A stretch of DNA of 50,476 nt, taken from contig PMUN01000376.1 of assembly GCA_003166875.1 (NCBI GenBank), positions 3,404-53,879 on the forward strand, given 5' to 3'. Made by a program: the position numbers and the translations under genes. The stretch comes from Bryobacterales bacterium (GTDB taxonomy: Bacteria > Acidobacteriota > Terriglobia > Bryobacterales > Bryobacteraceae). Below, in pieces: positions 4,370-38,649 of the stretch. Within the stretch, counting starts at the first letter, position 1. Every line of letters starts with the position of its first letter. Below the pieces are notes generated by a model, which was not told the DNA's origin, did not search any database, and was given only the letters and a program-made list of their open reading frames with translations.

Positions 4370-4373
4370 GCAG

Positions 4374-4426
4374 CGTAGGACAAGCCTCTGGCTTGTCAGC
4401 TGGGCAAACCGGAGGCTTGCCCTACG
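4374..4426. repeat. CGTAGG double-hairpin repeat (family A, copy 1)
   Basis: Two adjacent inverted repeats, GGACAAGCCTCTGGCTTGTC and GGGCAAACCGGAGGCTTGCC, are bounded by CGTAGG and its complement CCTACG. The same structure occurs at 11566-11616 and 14735-14787. The complement of CCTACG on the minus strand supplies the TAG stop codon (4422-4424) of the amidohydrolase gene, so the element overlaps that gene's end. Confidence 0.85.
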
Positions 4427-6128
4427 GAGCGCGCTGGTACATTACCTTACCGCCGACAATCGTATAGTCCACCTGCGCTTTGGGAATCTCGTCTTCCGGA
4501 ATCGTCAGGATATCTTTTGACAGCACCGTGACATCTGCCAGCTTGCCGGGCGCGAGCGAACCCTTGCTCGACTCCTCAAATGCCGAGTAAGCATTGTTCA
4601 CGGTGTACGACCGCAGCGCTTCTTCCCGGCTCATGCGCTGCTCCGGGAAAAATACCGATCCATCCTTCAACTTCCGGCTCACCGAAGCATAGAAGCATGC
4701 GATCGGGTCCACGTCTTCCACCGGCGTGTCCGTTCCATTGGTAACCAGCGCGCCCGACCGCATGAGACTCTGCCAAACATAGGCTCCTTCTTCGGCGCGC
4801 TTGGGTCCCAAACGCAAAATAACGAATGGCGCATCGGAGGTGCAGTGGATGCCTTGCATGGAAGCGATCACGCCCAGTTCCGCGAAGCGCGGAATGTCGG
4901 CTGGATCGATATGTTGCGCATGCTCGATGCGCCATCGCAAGGCTTTCTTATCCGGATGCTCCTTGAAGACGGCTTCGTATATATTCAGCACTTCGCGATT
5001 TGCGCGATCACCGATGGCGTGGACGCAGAGCTGATAGCCGTTGGCAATCGCGAGCTCCGCGGTCTTCCGTATATCGGCCGGATCTTGCGTCGCGAGCCCC
5101 GATCTGTTCGGAGTTCCAGGCGGCAGGTCGGAGTAAGGCTCCAGCATCCACGCGCCGCGCGACCCAAGCGCGCCATCCATCATGCGCTTGATGGCCCGAA
5201 CGGTGAAGTGGTCGTCGGCTGCGCCGATGGTGTAGTACTTGCGCAGATTCGGAGCTAGGATAGCGTTGCTGGTTCGAAGCATCACCCAGAGGCGCAGGCC
5301 CAGCTTGTGCTCCTCCGCCAGGCTCTTGAGCAAATCCACGGTCGGGAGCGGAGAGCCGGCGTCCTGAAAAGTGGTGATGCCTTTCGAAAGGCATTCGCGT
5401 GCCGCGAGATCCACCTGCTGGCGCGCTTCCGCGGCGAGTTCAGCGAGCGGCAGGTGCTCCCGATAGGACGTCAGCGCGCGCCCGATGAGACCCTGTGCCT
5501 GCTCGTTGAACAATCCGGTGGGATTGCCTTGCGCATCCTTCAGAATCTCGCCGCCGGATGGATTGGGAGTGTTCTTGTCGACGCCGGCCAGGCGCATCGC
5601 TTCCGCGTTCGCAAATCCTGCATGACCGCTGGCGTGAGTCAGCCACACCGGATTGTTTGGAGAAACTTTGCTGAGCGCGTCGTGCAGCGGGAATCCCTGC
5701 ACGTTGGGAGAGGGCGGCGGATCCCATTTGGCTTGATGCCAGCCGCGTCCGATAATCCAGGTTCCGGGCTTGGCTTCGCGCGCGGCTGCGGCGACCATGG
5801 CAACAATCTGGTCCCAATTCTTCACGTCGCGCAAATTCAGCGACATCTTAGAAGCGCCCAGACCGGTGAAATGCCCGTGCCCTTCGATGAATCCTGGGAT
5901 GGCCAGGCGTCCTGAGAGGTCGATGACCTTGGTGGAAGATCCGATGTAGGCTAGCATCTGCTGATTCGTGCCCACTGCGACGATCTTGCCGCCACGGGCC
6001 GCCAGCGCCTGCACTTCGGGCACGCTCGATTCCATGGTGACGATTTTGCCGTTGCGTAGCACCAGGTCGGCGGGCTGGGCCTGGAGGACGGCCACGCCCA
6101 AGGCGACTAAGAGGGACGAACGAATCAC
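4422..6128 (-). CDS. Exported amidohydrolase, YtcJ-like
   Basis: A 568-residue metal-dependent hydrolase of the amidohydrolase-3/YtcJ group. The N-terminus after a GTG start at 6128 (IRSSLLVALGVAVLQAQ) is a signal peptide, so the enzyme is probably periplasmic. The reading frame stays open upstream to 6224, but that extension would overlap the divergent ABC-F gene and hide the signal peptide, so I reject it. Metal-binding motifs seen are EGHGHFTG (HxH), CVHAIGDRAN and RIEHAQHID, and the C-terminal PGKLADVTVLSKD is the usual family end. The stop codon TAG lies inside the repeat at 4374-4426. The gene diverges from the ABC-F gene across a gap of about 58 bp that must hold both promoters. The substrate is unknown; amide or ester hydrolysis is expected. 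Confidence 0.88.
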   Translation of the reverse strand: MIRSSLLVALGVAVLQAQPADLVLRNGKIVTMESSVPEVQALAARGGKIVAVGTNQQMLAYIGSSTKVIDLSGRLAIPGFIEGHGHFTGLGASKMSLNLRDVKNWDQIVAMVAAAAREAKPGTWIIGRGWHQAKWDPPPSPNVQGFPLHDALSKVSPNNPVWLTHASGHAGFANAEAMRLAGVDKNTPNPSGGEILKDAQGNPTGLFNEQAQGLIGRALTSYREHLPLAELAAEARQQVDLAARECLSKGITTFQDAGSPLPTVDLLKSLAEEHKLGLRLWVMLRTSNAILAPNLRKYYTIGAADDHFTVRAIKRMMDGALGSRGAWMLEPYSDLPPGTPNRSGLATQDPADIRKTAELAIANGYQLCVHAIGDRANREVLNIYEAVFKEHPDKKALRWRIEHAQHIDPADIPRFAELGVIASMQGIHCTSDAPFVILRLGPKRAEEGAYVWQSLMRSGALVTNGTDTPVEDVDPIACFYASVSRKLKDGSVFFPEQRMSREEALRSYTVNNAYSAFEESSKGSLAPGKLADVTVLSKDILTIPEDEIPKAQVDYTIVGGKVMYQRAP

Positions 6129-9869: not shown

Positions 9870-11570
9870 ATGCGCCCACTCCTCCTGTTCCTCGCCATCC
9901 CCCTCTTCGCCCAACCCTACCGCGTCGTCATCCAGACTGGCGTGCCGGTCAAAATGCGCGACGGAGTCACGCTGAGGGCTGATGTTTTCCGCCCGGATGA
10001 TCCCGGCAAATTTCCGCTGCTGCTGGAGCGCACGCCGTACAATCGTGCCGGCGGTACCAGCGAGGCTTCGCAGCTTGCCGCGCACGGCTATGTGGTCGTC
10101 ATTCAAGACACGCGCGGGCGCTTTGCGTCGGAAGGCGAATTCTATCCGTTCCGCAATGAGAGCGCCGACGGTTATGATTCCGTGGAATGGGCAGCTGCAT
10201 TGCCCAACTCGAATGGCCATGTGGGCATGTTCGGCGGATCGTACGTCGGCGCGACGCAGATGCTCGCCGCTATTGCGATGCCTCCGCACCTCGATGCGAT
10301 CTTTCCTTATGTCACAGCCGCCGAATATTACGAGGGCTGGACCTATCAGGGCGGCAGCTTGATGCAATGGTTCGCCAGTTCGTGGTCTTCCGGCCTCACC
10401 ATCGATACGCTCACGCGTCAGGCGAATTCGAGGCTCCAACCCAAGGAATGGACCGCGACACTTCCGGTGGAAGCATATCGTATGACCGATCCTCCGCCCG
10501 TCTCCGGACTAGCTCCGTATTTTCAGGATTGGGTGGCGCACGAGCGCAACGATGAATACTGGCGCCCCTGGAAAATCTCCGATCATTATTCGGAAATGAA
10601 GGTGAAAGCGCTGCACGCTGGAGGCTGGCACGATATCTTCCTGGGCGGCTCCATTCGTAACTACGAAGGTATGCACAAGGTCTCGCTCGCTCGCGAGGAT
10701 CAAAGATTGCTGTTGGGTCCGTGGGCGCACGCTGCTACGTCGCCCGAAGGAAAAGTGGGCGACGTGGTTTTCGGAAAGGATGCCGTGCTGGATATGACCG
10801 GAACGGCGCTGCGGTGGTTCGATTACGCCTTGAAGGGCGTCCAGAACGAGTATGCGACCGGAGCGCCTGTACGCATCTTCGTTATGGGCGAGAACAAGTG
10901 GCGAGAGGAGCGCGAGTTTCCGCTGGCGCGCACGAAATATACCAAATATTTTCTGCATTCCTCGCACGAACTCAACACCTCCGCTCCCGGCCAAGACGGT
11001 CCTGACGCTTACGAATACGATCCGGCGAACCCGGTGCCAACCATCGGCGGACGGCTGTGCTGCGGCAACCAGATTCCGCCCGGTCCTGCGGATCAGCGCC
11101 CCAATGAAGGCCGTCCGGACGTGCTGATTTTTTCCACGCCGCCGCTGGATCGCGATGTGGAAGTGACCGGCTGGATCCACGCCGAAATCGATGCCGCGAG
11201 TTCAGCCGTGGATACCGATTTCACGGCGCTGCTGGCGGATGTGGAACCTTCCGGATACGCGCGATTTCTCACCGACGGCATCGTGCGCGCCCGCTACCGC
11301 AATTCCACTGAGAAGGCCGAGCCGATCGTTCCCGGCGAAATTTATCATTACAACATCGATATGTGGGCATCGAGCAACGTGTTCAAGGCGGGTCATCGCA
11401 TCCGGCTGTACATTTCGAGCAGCAATTTTCCGCGCTTCAATCGAAACCTGAATACCGGAGAGCCGATTCTAGGCGCAACGCGAACGGTCAAAGCTAGCCA
11501 GAAGATTTATCACGATGCGAAGCATCCATCGGCGCTGGTTCTGCCAGTGATTCCGTCTCCGTCCCCGTAG
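9870..11570 (+). CDS. Secreted CocE/NonD-family serine hydrolase (S15-like)
   Basis: A 566-residue alpha/beta hydrolase of the CocE/X-Pro dipeptidyl-peptidase type. It has a short signal peptide (MRPLLLFLAIPLFAQ), so it is probably exported. The nucleophile is S124 in MFGGSYVGATQ. The catalytic Asp is likely in AGGWHDIFLGG and the His in LLGPWAHA. The N-terminal strand VPVKMRDGVTLRADVFRP is typical of the family, as is the C-terminal jelly-roll domain (VTGWIHAEIDAASS onwards). Such enzymes hydrolyse acyl esters, amides or X-Pro peptides; the substrate here is unknown. The stop TAG at 11568-11570 is the TAG of the CGTAGG core of the repeat at 11566-11616. It is convergent with the permease gene. 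Confidence 0.88.
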   Translation: MRPLLLFLAIPLFAQPYRVVIQTGVPVKMRDGVTLRADVFRPDDPGKFPLLLERTPYNRAGGTSEASQLAAHGYVVVIQDTRGRFASEGEFYPFRNESADGYDSVEWAAALPNSNGHVGMFGGSYVGATQMLAAIAMPPHLDAIFPYVTAAEYYEGWTYQGGSLMQWFASSWSSGLTIDTLTRQANSRLQPKEWTATLPVEAYRMTDPPPVSGLAPYFQDWVAHERNDEYWRPWKISDHYSEMKVKALHAGGWHDIFLGGSIRNYEGMHKVSLAREDQRLLLGPWAHAATSPEGKVGDVVFGKDAVLDMTGTALRWFDYALKGVQNEYATGAPVRIFVMGENKWREEREFPLARTKYTKYFLHSSHELNTSAPGQDGPDAYEYDPANPVPTIGGRLCCGNQIPPGPADQRPNEGRPDVLIFSTPPLDRDVEVTGWIHAEIDAASSAVDTDFTALLADVEPSGYARFLTDGIVRARYRNSTEKAEPIVPGEIYHYNIDMWASSNVFKAGHRIRLYISSSNFPRFNRNLNTGEPILGATRTVKASQKIYHDAKHPSALVLPVIPSPSP

Positions 11571-11616
11571 GGCAAGTCTCCGACTTGCCCTGGACAAGCC
11601 GGAGGCTTGTCCTACG
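11566..11616. repeat. CGTAGG double-hairpin repeat (family A, copy 2)
   Basis: Two inverted repeats, GGGCAAGTCTCCGACTTGCCC in the left half and GGACAAGCCGGAGGCTTGTCC in the right, are enclosed by CGTAGG and CCTACG. It fills the 53-bp gap between two convergent genes and provides the stop codon of the CocE-like gene. The position suits a bidirectional transcription-end structure, although no T-run of terminator type follows except TTTT at 11617-11620. Confidence 0.88.
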
Positions 11617-11623
11617 TTTTACG

Positions 11624-14689: not shown

Positions 14690-14734
14690 CAGGGGGGTAG
14701 TTTGGACATTGTTCTAGTATCGGTCCCGTGATTC

Positions 14735-14787
14735 CGTAGGGCAAGTCTCCGACTTGCCCATGGGACAAGCCGGAGGCTTGTCCTACG
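14735..14787. repeat. CGTAGG double-hairpin repeat (family A, copy 3)
   Basis: This copy is nearly identical to 11566-11616: hairpins with arms GGGCAAGT/ACTTGCCC and GGACAAGCC/GGCTTGTCC between CGTAGG and CCTACG. It is followed at once by three tandem TACGAT-like hexamers (14784-14801). It lies where the ribosome binding region of the following methyltransferase gene would be expected to begin. Confidence 0.88.
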
Positions 14788-14806
14788 ATTACGATTACGA
14801 TGGTAT

Positions 14807-24382: not shown

Positions 24383-24584
24383 GTCCCCTTGCTGACGGGT
24401 CTGTGAAAAAATCGGTTGGCAGGCGAAAGCGCCTGCCCCACCCAAACCGTAAAACCTTACACGTCAAAGTGGGGCAGACGCTTCCGTCTGCCAACCAGGC
24501 GATTCATTCCGATTTTTTTACAGACCCCTAACGCGCGGGGCTACCAGGGCTTGGCATTGTAGCCCTGCGCGTCAGCAAGGGGAC
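24383..24584. repeat. 202-bp nested palindrome (families C and D combined)
   Basis: Three inverted repeats are nested. The outer arms GTCCCCTTGCTGAC (24383-24396) and GTCAGCAAGGGGAC (24571-24584) are perfect over 14 bp. The middle arms GGGTCTGTGAAAAAATCGG (24397-24415) and CCGATTTTTTTACAGACCC (24502-24520) pair with one or two mismatches. The inner arms begin TTGGCAGGCG and end CGCCTGCCCCAC on the left, and GTGGGGCAGACG to CGTCTGCCAAC on the right (to about 24488). A further small hairpin (GGGGCTAC/GTAGCCC) lies within the right part. It fills the gap between two minus-strand genes and ends 2 bp beyond the stop codon of the DapA-family gene. Nothing else is seen in 24299-24586. Confidence 0.85.
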
Positions 24585-24586
24585 TA

Positions 24587-25600
24587 TTAGCGCAACCATT
24601 CATCAAGGTGATCTTGAACGAACTGATCGTCGGCGAGATCAGGATAAGCACAGCAAACCCGATCGATCTCTTCACTCTGGCCCGGCGAAAGCGCTTCGTT
24701 AGGATCGAGGCACCAAGTTCCTTCCAGCAGTCCCTGACGGCGCAGGATCTCGTGTAGACCCGCGATGCAGCCGCGAAACTGGTTCGCTGGATCAAAAAAA
24801 GCTGCATTCGCGTCCGTCACTTGTTGCGCGAGTGTCAAAAGGGACGCCGGTATTTGGTCACCGGTCGCGTGGACGGCGGAAAGCTGCTCTACCGCGGTTC
24901 GGGCCCAGACCGCCCAGTGGCCCAGCAATCCACCCACGATGCGAGTTTTGCGGCCGCCGAAATCGAACTGCGTGAGCAGGTCAACAATAATGTTGTCGTC
25001 GTTGCCGGTGTAGAGCGCGATATCGTCAGCGCGTCCAGACTCCACCACTGCGCGTACAACATCAAGAGTCTGATAGCGATCGAACGGAGCGATTTTGATG
25101 GCAACTACAGCGTCAATCTCCGCGAATTCGCGCCAGAAACTGTATGGCAGCAGCCGGCCACCCACGCTCGGTTGCAAGTAGAACCCGATAATCGGAATGA
25201 CGTTTGCAACGGTCCGTACGTGCTGGATCAACTGAGGAACTGTTGCATCGCGCAGCGCGCCCAGGCTGAGTAGCGCAGCGTCGTAGCCCAGCAATGCCGC
25301 GAGTTCGGCTTCCTGGACGGCTTGCGCGGTTTGGCCGCACACGCCTGCGATCTTGGCGACGGTGCGCTGGCGCATTTCTTCCATCGCCAATTCGAGAACG
25401 GGACGGAATAATCCGAAGCGCGGCTCGCGAATGGCGAACTGGGTGGTGTGGACGCCGACGGCGATTCCACCGGCTCCAGCAGCCAGATAATATCGCGTGA
25501 GAGCGCGTTGCCTGCGTTCGTCCAGTTTGCGTTCCGCATTCAAAGCCAGCGGATGAGCCGGAATCACGTGGCCTTGCTTGAGATGCTGGCGGATTTCCAT
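24587..25600 (-). CDS. DapA/NanA-family aldolase or synthase
   Basis: A 337-residue TIM-barrel lyase of the dihydrodipicolinate synthase/N-acetylneuraminate lyase family. The Schiff-base lysine is K169 in AVVAIKIAPF. The Tyr of the proton relay is Y141 in IIGFYLQPSVGGR. AGAGGIAVGVHTTQFA replaces the usual GTTGE-type loop. The family forms or cleaves carbon-carbon bonds next to a 2-oxo acid; in a sugar-catabolic cluster a 2-keto-3-deoxy sugar acid aldolase is the likely role, not lysine synthesis. It is somewhat longer than the usual 290-300 residues. The ATG at 25600 overlaps the stop of the upstream epimerase gene (TGATG), so translation is coupled. Confidence 0.87.
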   Translation of the reverse strand: MEIRQHLKQGHVIPAHPLALNAERKLDERRQRALTRYYLAAGAGGIAVGVHTTQFAIREPRFGLFRPVLELAMEEMRQRTVAKIAGVCGQTAQAVQEAELAALLGYDAALLSLGALRDATVPQLIQHVRTVANVIPIIGFYLQPSVGGRLLPYSFWREFAEIDAVVAIKIAPFDRYQTLDVVRAVVESGRADDIALYTGNDDNIIVDLLTQFDFGGRKTRIVGGLLGHWAVWARTAVEQLSAVHATGDQIPASLLTLAQQVTDANAAFFDPANQFRGCIAGLHEILRRQGLLEGTWCLDPNEALSPGQSEEIDRVCCAYPDLADDQFVQDHLDEWLR

Positions 25601-26652
25601 CAATATTTACCGTCCCGCGCTTCGAAATGGGTTGGTTTGTTTAGTAAACGGCCGCCGCCAGTAATCCAATTTGCAACCCAATCCATCATTTGATTGGCGG
25701 TGACTGTGGGAAGGCCGAAGAGTTTATGGGAATCGGCGGCGTTGCTTAGCAGAGCCGTGGTGCTTTCCTCGCCGGAAAAGATTGGGGTTTTCCCGAGTCG
25801 TTGGCCAAAGTCGCGTGCGATTTCACGCACGGACAATTTTTCGGGACCCGTGATGTTCAACACTCGGGGTGGTGACTGACAATGCGGGAACGATCGCAGA
25901 CACATGGAATTCGCATCGCCCTGCCAGATCACATTCACCATCCCCATTCGCAAATCAATGGGTCGCCCTTCGAAAACTGCCATCGCAATGTCCACCAACA
26001 CGCCGTAGCGAAGATCCACAGCGTAGTTGAGCCGTAGCAGCGCGACTTTAGTCTGCCAGCGGCTGGACGCGTACTCGAACATACGCTCCCGGCCGAGGAC
26101 CGACTGCGCGTACTCGCCCGCCGGCGCCACGGGAGACGACTCGATGCATCCGTCGCTGGATATTGGTTCTAAACCGTACACATTTCCGGAGGAAAACGCG
26201 ACGATGCGTGAAGTTCGATATCTTTCGGCGACCAATCCCGGCAGATATGTGTTCATTGCCCAGGTCAAATATGCTGAGCCACTGGTGCCGAACTTGCGCG
26301 CGGCCATAAAAATGATATTGGGCGCATCGGGGAGTTGGGCGAGCGCGCCTGGCTCCAAGAGGTCGCTGGTGATGGTCTCGATGCCGGATGCATTCAGCTC
26401 GGCTGCGGCGTTGACATTTGAGAAACGCGCCACCGCGATGATGCGTTTTCTTGAATCACCGACTCCCTTACGGTCGCGGTTCGGTTTTTCGTCCGCGGCG
26501 CGGCGAGCGAGCTTCGCCAAACTGGGTCCCATTTTCCCGCCGGCGCCCAGGATCAGAAGATCGCCATCGAGCGCCGCCATGGCCGCGATATCCTGCTCGG
26601 TGGGCCGCGACAATCGTTCTTCGAGTTCTGTTTCGTTGTGGATCATCTGCAT
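25600..26652 (-). CDS. NAD-dependent epimerase/dehydratase with an in-frame repeat insertion
   Basis: A 350-residue extended short-chain dehydrogenase. The nucleotide loop is LLILGAGGKMGPSLA (GxxGxxG). FSSGNVYG carries the catalytic Ser region. The expected Tyr-x3-Lys appears as YAQSV, so the active-site lysine is not evident. NITGPEKLSVREIA is the usual C-terminal substrate-domain start. After the second strand the protein contains EKPNRDRKGVGDSRKR, encoded by a copy of repeat family B (26458-26485). Such a long basic loop is unusual between that helix and the IIAVARF strand. ATG 26652 is preferred to the TTG three codons upstream. The gene overlaps the dapA-like gene downstream by 1 nt. It probably acts on a sugar or sugar acid. 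Confidence 0.85.
   Translation of the reverse strand: MQMIHNETELEERLSRPTEQDIAAMAALDGDLLILGAGGKMGPSLAKLARRAADEKPNRDRKGVGDSRKRIIAVARFSNVNAAAELNASGIETITSDLLEPGALAQLPDAPNIIFMAARKFGTSGSAYLTWAMNTYLPGLVAERYRTSRIVAFSSGNVYGLEPISSDGCIESSPVAPAGEYAQSVLGRERMFEYASSRWQTKVALLRLNYAVDLRYGVLVDIAMAVFEGRPIDLRMGMVNVIWQGDANSMCLRSFPHCQSPPRVLNITGPEKLSVREIARDFGQRLGKTPIFSGEESTTALLSNAADSHKLFGLPTVTANQMMDWVANWITGGGRLLNKPTHFEARDGKY
26458..26485. repeat. Repeat family B, copy 1 (inside the epimerase gene)
   Basis: 28 bp starting ACCGACTCCCTTACGG and ending TCGCGGTTCGGT. It is identical over all 28 bases to 38622-38649 and differs at one base from 37534-37561. Unlike those copies it lies inside a coding sequence, in frame, and specifies part of a basic loop. 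Confidence 0.9.
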
Positions 26653-26653
26653 A

Positions 26654-27433
26654 TTAACCAAGTTCGAAGCCCGCGATCGCGTAGATCCAGCCTTCGCGGC
26701 CTCGCAAGTCTCTGCCTCGCACCATTCTGATCAACTTTCGCTTCTCGGTGAATCCGAGCTCTGTCGCGAGGGCGAGAGCTGCCGGGTTTTGCGGAAGCAG
26801 ATCCCAGTAGGATTCTTCTTGCGCGCAGGCTTGGATAGAATGGCGGGCAAAATCCGCGTTGCGCGCGACGCAAGGGCCGACATAGTTGGCGCGCCGGCCT
26901 GGTCGAGAGAGGCAGAATCCGTCAGGGCTGGTTTGAACGTTGCTACGTTGCATCAGGGCGCGTAGTAGTTCTGAACGATCCGCTTTGTATGCTTCCATAT
27001 CGTGGTCTAAGAAGTTGGCAGGCTGAAGGGCTGCCCCACCAGCCTGCGGGGTTCGCCACCAGCGTTGTACTGGTTGTTCCACGCGGAACCCTAGGCTTTC
27101 ATAAAGCGGTTGTCCCTGATCTGTTGCATCCAATTTCAAGGACTCAACGCCGAGCTGGTCCGCCCGCGCGATCGCGTGCAGCAGCAAGGTCCGAGCAAAA
27201 CCGCGGCGTTGGTAGGCGCGATTGGTCAGGACCATGCCAATCCATGCAAGCTTCCTGCCGTAACAGGAAAGTGTTGCAGTTGACACCAGGCGGCCATCAA
27301 ATTCAATGCCAAAACAATTTTCCGGATTGAGGCGCAACAGCATCCGCCAGTCGTCCGCGGTCTGATTCCAGCCGGCCTCGGCCGAAAGTTCAGTGGCGAT
27401 GACGATATCCTGTTCCTGGAGGAGACGGACCAT
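26654..27433 (-). CDS. GNAT-family N-acetyltransferase (two-domain)
   Basis: A 259-residue acetyltransferase. The N-terminal GNAT domain (about 1-140) shows the acetyl-CoA site NRAYQRRGFARTLLLHAIAR and the following LYESLGFR. The C-terminal part (about 160-259) looks like a second, degenerate GNAT fold ending LALATELGFTEKRKLIRM. Between them lies WWRTPQAGGAALQPANFLDH, encoded across a copy of repeat family D (27014-27039). ATG 27433 has a good ribosome binding site (AAGGG, 8 nt); the longer open frame to 27568 is rejected because it would run through the divergent gene's coding sequence. The acetylated substrate is unknown. Its start codon overlaps the start of the divergent isomerase gene. 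Confidence 0.85.
   Translation of the reverse strand: MVRLLQEQDIVIATELSAEAGWNQTADDWRMLLRLNPENCFGIEFDGRLVSTATLSCYGRKLAWIGMVLTNRAYQRRGFARTLLLHAIARADQLGVESLKLDATDQGQPLYESLGFRVEQPVQRWWRTPQAGGAALQPANFLDHDMEAYKADRSELLRALMQRSNVQTSPDGFCLSRPGRRANYVGPCVARNADFARHSIQACAQEESYWDLLPQNPAALALATELGFTEKRKLIRMVRGRDLRGREGWIYAIAGFELG
27014..27039. repeat. Repeat family D, copy inside the GNAT gene
   Basis: GTTGGCAG (27014-27021) and CTGCCCCAC (27031-27039) reproduce both ends of the inner hairpin arms at 24415-24441 and 24469-24488, with a variable middle of about 9 bp. Here the element is within the GNAT reading frame and encodes the Gly/Ala/Gln stretch GGAALQPAN on the minus strand. Confidence 0.7.
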
Positions 27434-37533: not shown

Positions 37534-37596
37534 ACCGACTCCCTCACGGTCGCGGTTCGGTAACACTCTTCCGAACCGCGAGCGTAAGCGACCGGT
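37534..37596. repeat. Repeat family B, copy 2 (full palindrome)
   Basis: The left arm (37534-37561) is 27/28 identical to the other family B copies. After a 9-bp loop, CCGAACCGCGAGCGTAAGCG forms an imperfect complementary arm. It lies in the 252-bp gap between the M14 gene and the HDOD gene, where no coding sequence is evident. Confidence 0.85.
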
Positions 37597-38621: not shown

Positions 38622-38649
38622 ACCGACTCCCTTACGGTCGCGGTTCGGT
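38622..38649. repeat. Repeat family B, copy 3
   Basis: 28 bp identical to 26458-26485. It lies exactly between two convergent genes, 8 bp from each stop codon. Only the left half of the palindrome seen at 37534-37596 is present. Confidence 0.9.

Follow-up and report, generated by a model that had tools for sequence, protein, structure and literature searches.

Can a short dispersed repeat become part of an enzyme without breaking it? The question is raised by a 28-mer, ACCGACTCCCTTACGGTCGCGGTTCGGT, at positions 26458 to 26485 of the window, the 50,476-nucleotide stretch of contig PMUN01000376.1 (Bryobacterales bacterium, assembly GCA_003166875.1) that was analyzed here. This copy lies on the forward strand inside a reverse-strand gene of the NAD-dependent epimerase/dehydratase family (25600 to 26661; Pfam PF01370 Epimerase, E 7.7e-7), whose open reading frame (ORF) comprises 353 amino acids, with the true start possibly a few codons downstream. 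We confirmed that the 28-mer is identical to an intergenic forward copy at 38622 to 38649, located directly past the stop of the upstream gene, and that it shares 27 of 28 positions with another intergenic forward copy at 37534 to 37561, which is followed by a degenerate inverted partner, CCGAACCGCGAGCGTAAGCGACCGGT. Shuffled windows contained no match to the 28-mer (0 expected). A sequence-only reading of the window had proposed that a mobile REP-type element was inserted into a tolerant loop of the epimerase, adding a basic segment in frame.

The epimerase gene does read the reverse complement of the repeat in frame, as PNRDRKGVG, in the context ...ADE-KPNRDRKGV-GDSRKR.... In an alignment with about 30 homologous epimerases from the same family, the same order, Paenibacillus, and Chthonomonadales, exactly nine residues, KPNRDRKGV, are missing at the position of the repeat, and in a few homologs the loop is shorter still. 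The net insertion is 27 bp (reverse strand, 26461 to 26487, codons 59 to 67), with borders that are ambiguous by a few bases. The only homolog with KPNRDRKGV is the ortholog of the sister species (G002), which is 93% identical and carries the same repeat in the same place; no repeat-free homolog with the basic loop was found in the alignment, and the loop is thus specific to the insertion. An assembly artefact was ruled out, since the insert is common to two genomes that differ by 11% in the epimerase gene. The closest insert-free copy is that of genome G012 (70% identical), and the sequences compared indicate that the insertion took place before the two species separated but after their divergence from G012. 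The epimerase gene had no match in genomes G001, G003, G004, or G005, and hence there is no direct empty-site sequence.

The 28-mer belongs to a repeat family, of which it forms the conserved core. Allowing for three or fewer mismatches, 367 copies (172 forward and 195 reverse) were counted in this genome (an 8.02-Mb draft in 485 contigs), and a reversed-pattern control yielded 0 matches in the same genome. Among the congeners, the sister species contains 189 copies, G004 contains 16, G001 contains 1, and G003 contains 0, and only three matches were obtained in the other 36 genomes of the family and order. The element spans about 30 to 36 bp, aaaGGCACCGACTCCCTTACGGTCGCGGTTCGGTAACac, and 106 single copies gave the consensus aaagGCACCGACTCCCTtACGGTCGCGGTTCGGTAACac, which is flat beyond these positions. 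The core is free of stop codons in five of its six reading frames. The repeat had been described as dispersed and palindromic; it is dispersed, but the palindrome is weak and imperfect in a single copy, and stable hairpins form only from inverted pairs. In a single copy, only the ends ACCGA and TCGGT pair, and the DNA folding z score is about 0, no better than that of shuffled sequences, so that the stable single-unit hairpin of RAYT-associated REPs was not seen with DNA parameters. Inverted pairs reach −38 kcal/mol (z score of −11.9), and near-perfect 30-bp hairpins are possible. Most sampled copies are single, and inverted neighbors, which correspond to BIME-like pairing, occurred 19 times in the "+-" order versus once in the "-+" order.

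The distribution of copies inside and outside genes was determined in a sample picked mostly around exact copies, with 1.40 Mb taken from this genome and 0.37 Mb from the sister species; genes were called with a home-made hexamer gene finder, which classed 90% of the 1.40 Mb as coding, and copies were accepted with five or fewer mismatches. Among the 145 copies in the 1.40 Mb, 117 were intergenic, 18 were located at gene ends, 9 were inside an ORF, and 1 overlapped a start. If copies were placed at random, 88% of them would fall within genes; internal copies are therefore strongly depleted, as expected if most are removed by selection or avoided. With a length in the 20- to 40-bp range of REPs, a high copy number, and a dispersed and mainly intergenic distribution, the element resembles a REP in these respects. 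Intergenic copies are enriched between convergent gene pairs (odds ratio of 2.4, P = 8e-5). At 17 of the 18 gene ends, the gene runs into the element and stops at its TAA (15 with a TEPRP tail and 2 with an SEPRP tail); at the remaining one, the stop adjoins the element. The identical C-terminal tail formed by TEPRP and the element's TAA, which results from a reading frame other than that used in the epimerase, is found in 15 sampled genes here (loci L080, L082, L087, L090, L101, L102, L106, L107, L114, L138, L145, L151, L152, L157, and L165) and at L121 in the sister species.

Three of the nine copies classed as inside an ORF are in the other orientation at a C terminus, which ends in ...TVAVR* or ...TVAAR*. 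Well-supported internal in-frame insertions number three: the epimerase copy, the copy at position 4302 of L101, and the copy at position 9125 of L109. The L101 copy is a 33-bp, 11-codon in-frame insert near the N terminus of a 323-amino-acid protein, and its site is empty in four congeners (G002, G001, G003, and G004), so that this gene supplies a same-genus empty site. The L109 copy is located in a linker behind an MNIO/MbnB-like domain; the ortholog in the sister species (L189) has no element at this site but an unrelated GC-rich palindromic stretch, which is likewise in frame. Near-N-terminal copies at L077 and L087 were set aside, since the start may be downstream. In the sister species, a copy at L129 lies between two AHSA1-like segments; the matching place in this genome consists of N's, and this copy is therefore undated.

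This genome contains several Y1 transposase genes. One of them (G000:C23) encodes a HuH protein with the motifs NHVH, WT, and YVIEEQ and has exact inverted copies of the element on both sides. Diverged inverted copies also lie on both sides of each of the related genes in G017, G007, G002, and G003 and of a second such gene in this genome, and diverged copies are located near the transposase gene of G005; 97 kb of control loci searched at the same stringency yielded 0 diverged-copy matches. Compared by eye, the C23 motifs match the class 3 TnpA-Y1 set listed in PMC6006769 (NHVH, W[TA], and YV[VI][AENY]EQ). The flanking association suggests that a transposase of the C23 type moves the element, and we infer that it also moved the epimerase copy.

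Other repeats were observed as well. Inverted copies of a second repeat, CGCGCGGGGCTAC, flank another related Y1 transposase gene, both here and in the sister species (L225, positions 1422 and 1998; L221, positions 1175 and 1753; window, positions 24532 and 2961), and the two appear to form a second transposase/REP pair. The window also contains three occurrences of a further pair of GC-rich repeats, GGACAAGCCGGAGGCTTGTCC and CCGTAGGGCAAGTCTCCGACTTGCCC (4373 to 4429, 11565 to 11619, and 14734 to 14790).

The presence of individual copies varies between the two sister species. Copies common to both include those in the epimerase gene, at 38622, at L076 11627, and at L107 2086, among others, and copies present here and absent from the sister species are those at L115 12609, L101 4302, and 37534, where the whole block of copy and inverted partner is missing. 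At L076 12708 and L099 5990, the sister species (L132 and L128) has another repeat, of the GCGGGGCTAC family, as though different repeats could occupy one and the same site. The proposed insertion of a mobile REP-type element into a tolerant loop is supported: the element is dispersed, varies in presence between sisters, and is associated with a RAYT-like HuH transposase. A copy derived from a repeat already present through ectopic recombination, gene conversion, or template switching, with no transposase involved, would fit the irregular insertion sizes (a net gain of 27 bp in the epimerase versus 33 bp in L101), and the three sites with a different sequence in the sister species, at least two of which hold a different repeat there, are consistent with recombination or with repeated repair at the same site. 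The homologs, however, show no prior repeat at the epimerase site, and hundreds of near-identical dispersed copies together with the flanking HuH transposase favor transposition, which makes such an arrival improbable.

The expectation that the protein was not broken is borne out by the comparison of the two species: dN is 0.032 and dS is 0.50 (dN/dS of about 0.06), and therefore purifying selection on the epimerase gene continued once the repeat had been inserted. As a position between a Rossmann helix and the next strand had been proposed, it is of note that the insert is predicted to form a coil behind the first such helix (residues 45 to 57) and ahead of a strand (residues 74 to 78) in an AlphaFold model built from ten sequences (mean pLDDT of 80), in which residues 61 to 69 have low confidence (pLDDT below 50); no solved structure with a similar sequence was found for the epimerase. 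The peptide might instead be adaptive, with the repeat co-opted as a new binding surface or for regulation, as its codons are identical in both species, within a 45-nucleotide identical run, despite a dS of about 0.5. Identical runs of 51, 44, 44, and 38 nucleotides are found elsewhere in the gene, however, so that a special constraint on the insert DNA is unsupported; the segment is also predicted to be disordered, similar peptides occur in unrelated proteins, and we regard adaptation as improbable. Most likely the nine residues are tolerated, and we infer that they are functionally neutral. A chance resemblance of codons to the repeat in an enzyme that needs a basic loop is not supported by any point that we found and is practically refuted by the identity of all 28 positions to a repeat with 367 copies in the genome (shuffled sequences should give 0 matches) and by homologs that lack the segment altogether.

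We thus consider it highly probable that a non-autonomous REP-type element, spread by a class 3 HuH transposase, inserted into the epimerase gene before the two species split and persists there as nine tolerated codons of a surface loop. The 28-mer is the core of this element, which most likely is spread by a class 3 single-strand HuH (Y1) TnpA encoded elsewhere in the genome. One copy would have entered the epimerase gene in the common ancestor of this species and its sister. As the element has no stop in the frame concerned, the net gain of 27 bp would have become nine codons in the predicted loop that follows the first Rossmann helix; the protein would have tolerated the insert, and purifying selection has maintained the gene. 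A selfish micro-repeat would in this way have turned into protein sequence without killing the gene, in a case bracketed by insert-free homologs and a matching transposase, and the little-studied class 3 HuH/REP systems gain an in-gene readout. It seems doubtful that REP insertion is a regular source of new protein segments in this lineage (loops, TEPRP tails, and domain-joining linkers), some of them now functional. In-frame lengthening of proteins by repeats is known but uncommon; the phenomenon is not new, and the epimerase is a clean new example of it.

REPs in frame inside genes and REP-supplied stop codons have already been described, loops and linkers have been proposed as REP-tolerant sites, and the Rickettsia elements RPE-4 and RPE-6 have been treated in the same set as REPs (PMC3733652). 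Like RPE-1 to RPE-6, the present element is inserted in frame in unrelated genes, has mostly open frames, and leaves proteins apparently functional; compared by description, it differs in belonging to another lineage and in that only a small fraction of its copies is internal, the majority being intergenic. It shares with the GTAG/CGTC REPs that it is short, dispersed, mostly intergenic, and often in inverted pairs, with some in-frame intragenic copies and some supplied stops; unlike them, it has neither a GTAG nor a CGTC tag at the ends of the consensus from 106 single copies, and the stop that it supplies is TAA, not TAG (PMC3733652). Class 3 TnpA-Y1 genes occur chiefly in Planctomycetes, Acidobacteria, and Proteobacteria, and Solibacter usitatus Ellin6076 has about 600 copies of class 3-associated structures (PMC6006769). 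With that class, as described there, the present system shares the HuH motifs, the inverted repeats flanking the gene, the hundreds of copies, and the occurrence in Acidobacteria (PMC6006769). Intragenic copies, which the present element has, are not mentioned in the available part of the class 3 account, and the 5′ tetranucleotide foot CnGA, which class 3 structures have at their base, can be placed only on the folded structure, with CCGA located near the element's 5′ end (CACCGAC). Since PMC6006769 describes class 3 structures as atypical, we use the label "REP-type" and not classical REP. As far as the class is described there, the element fits the class 3 association rather than the GTAG/CGTC families.
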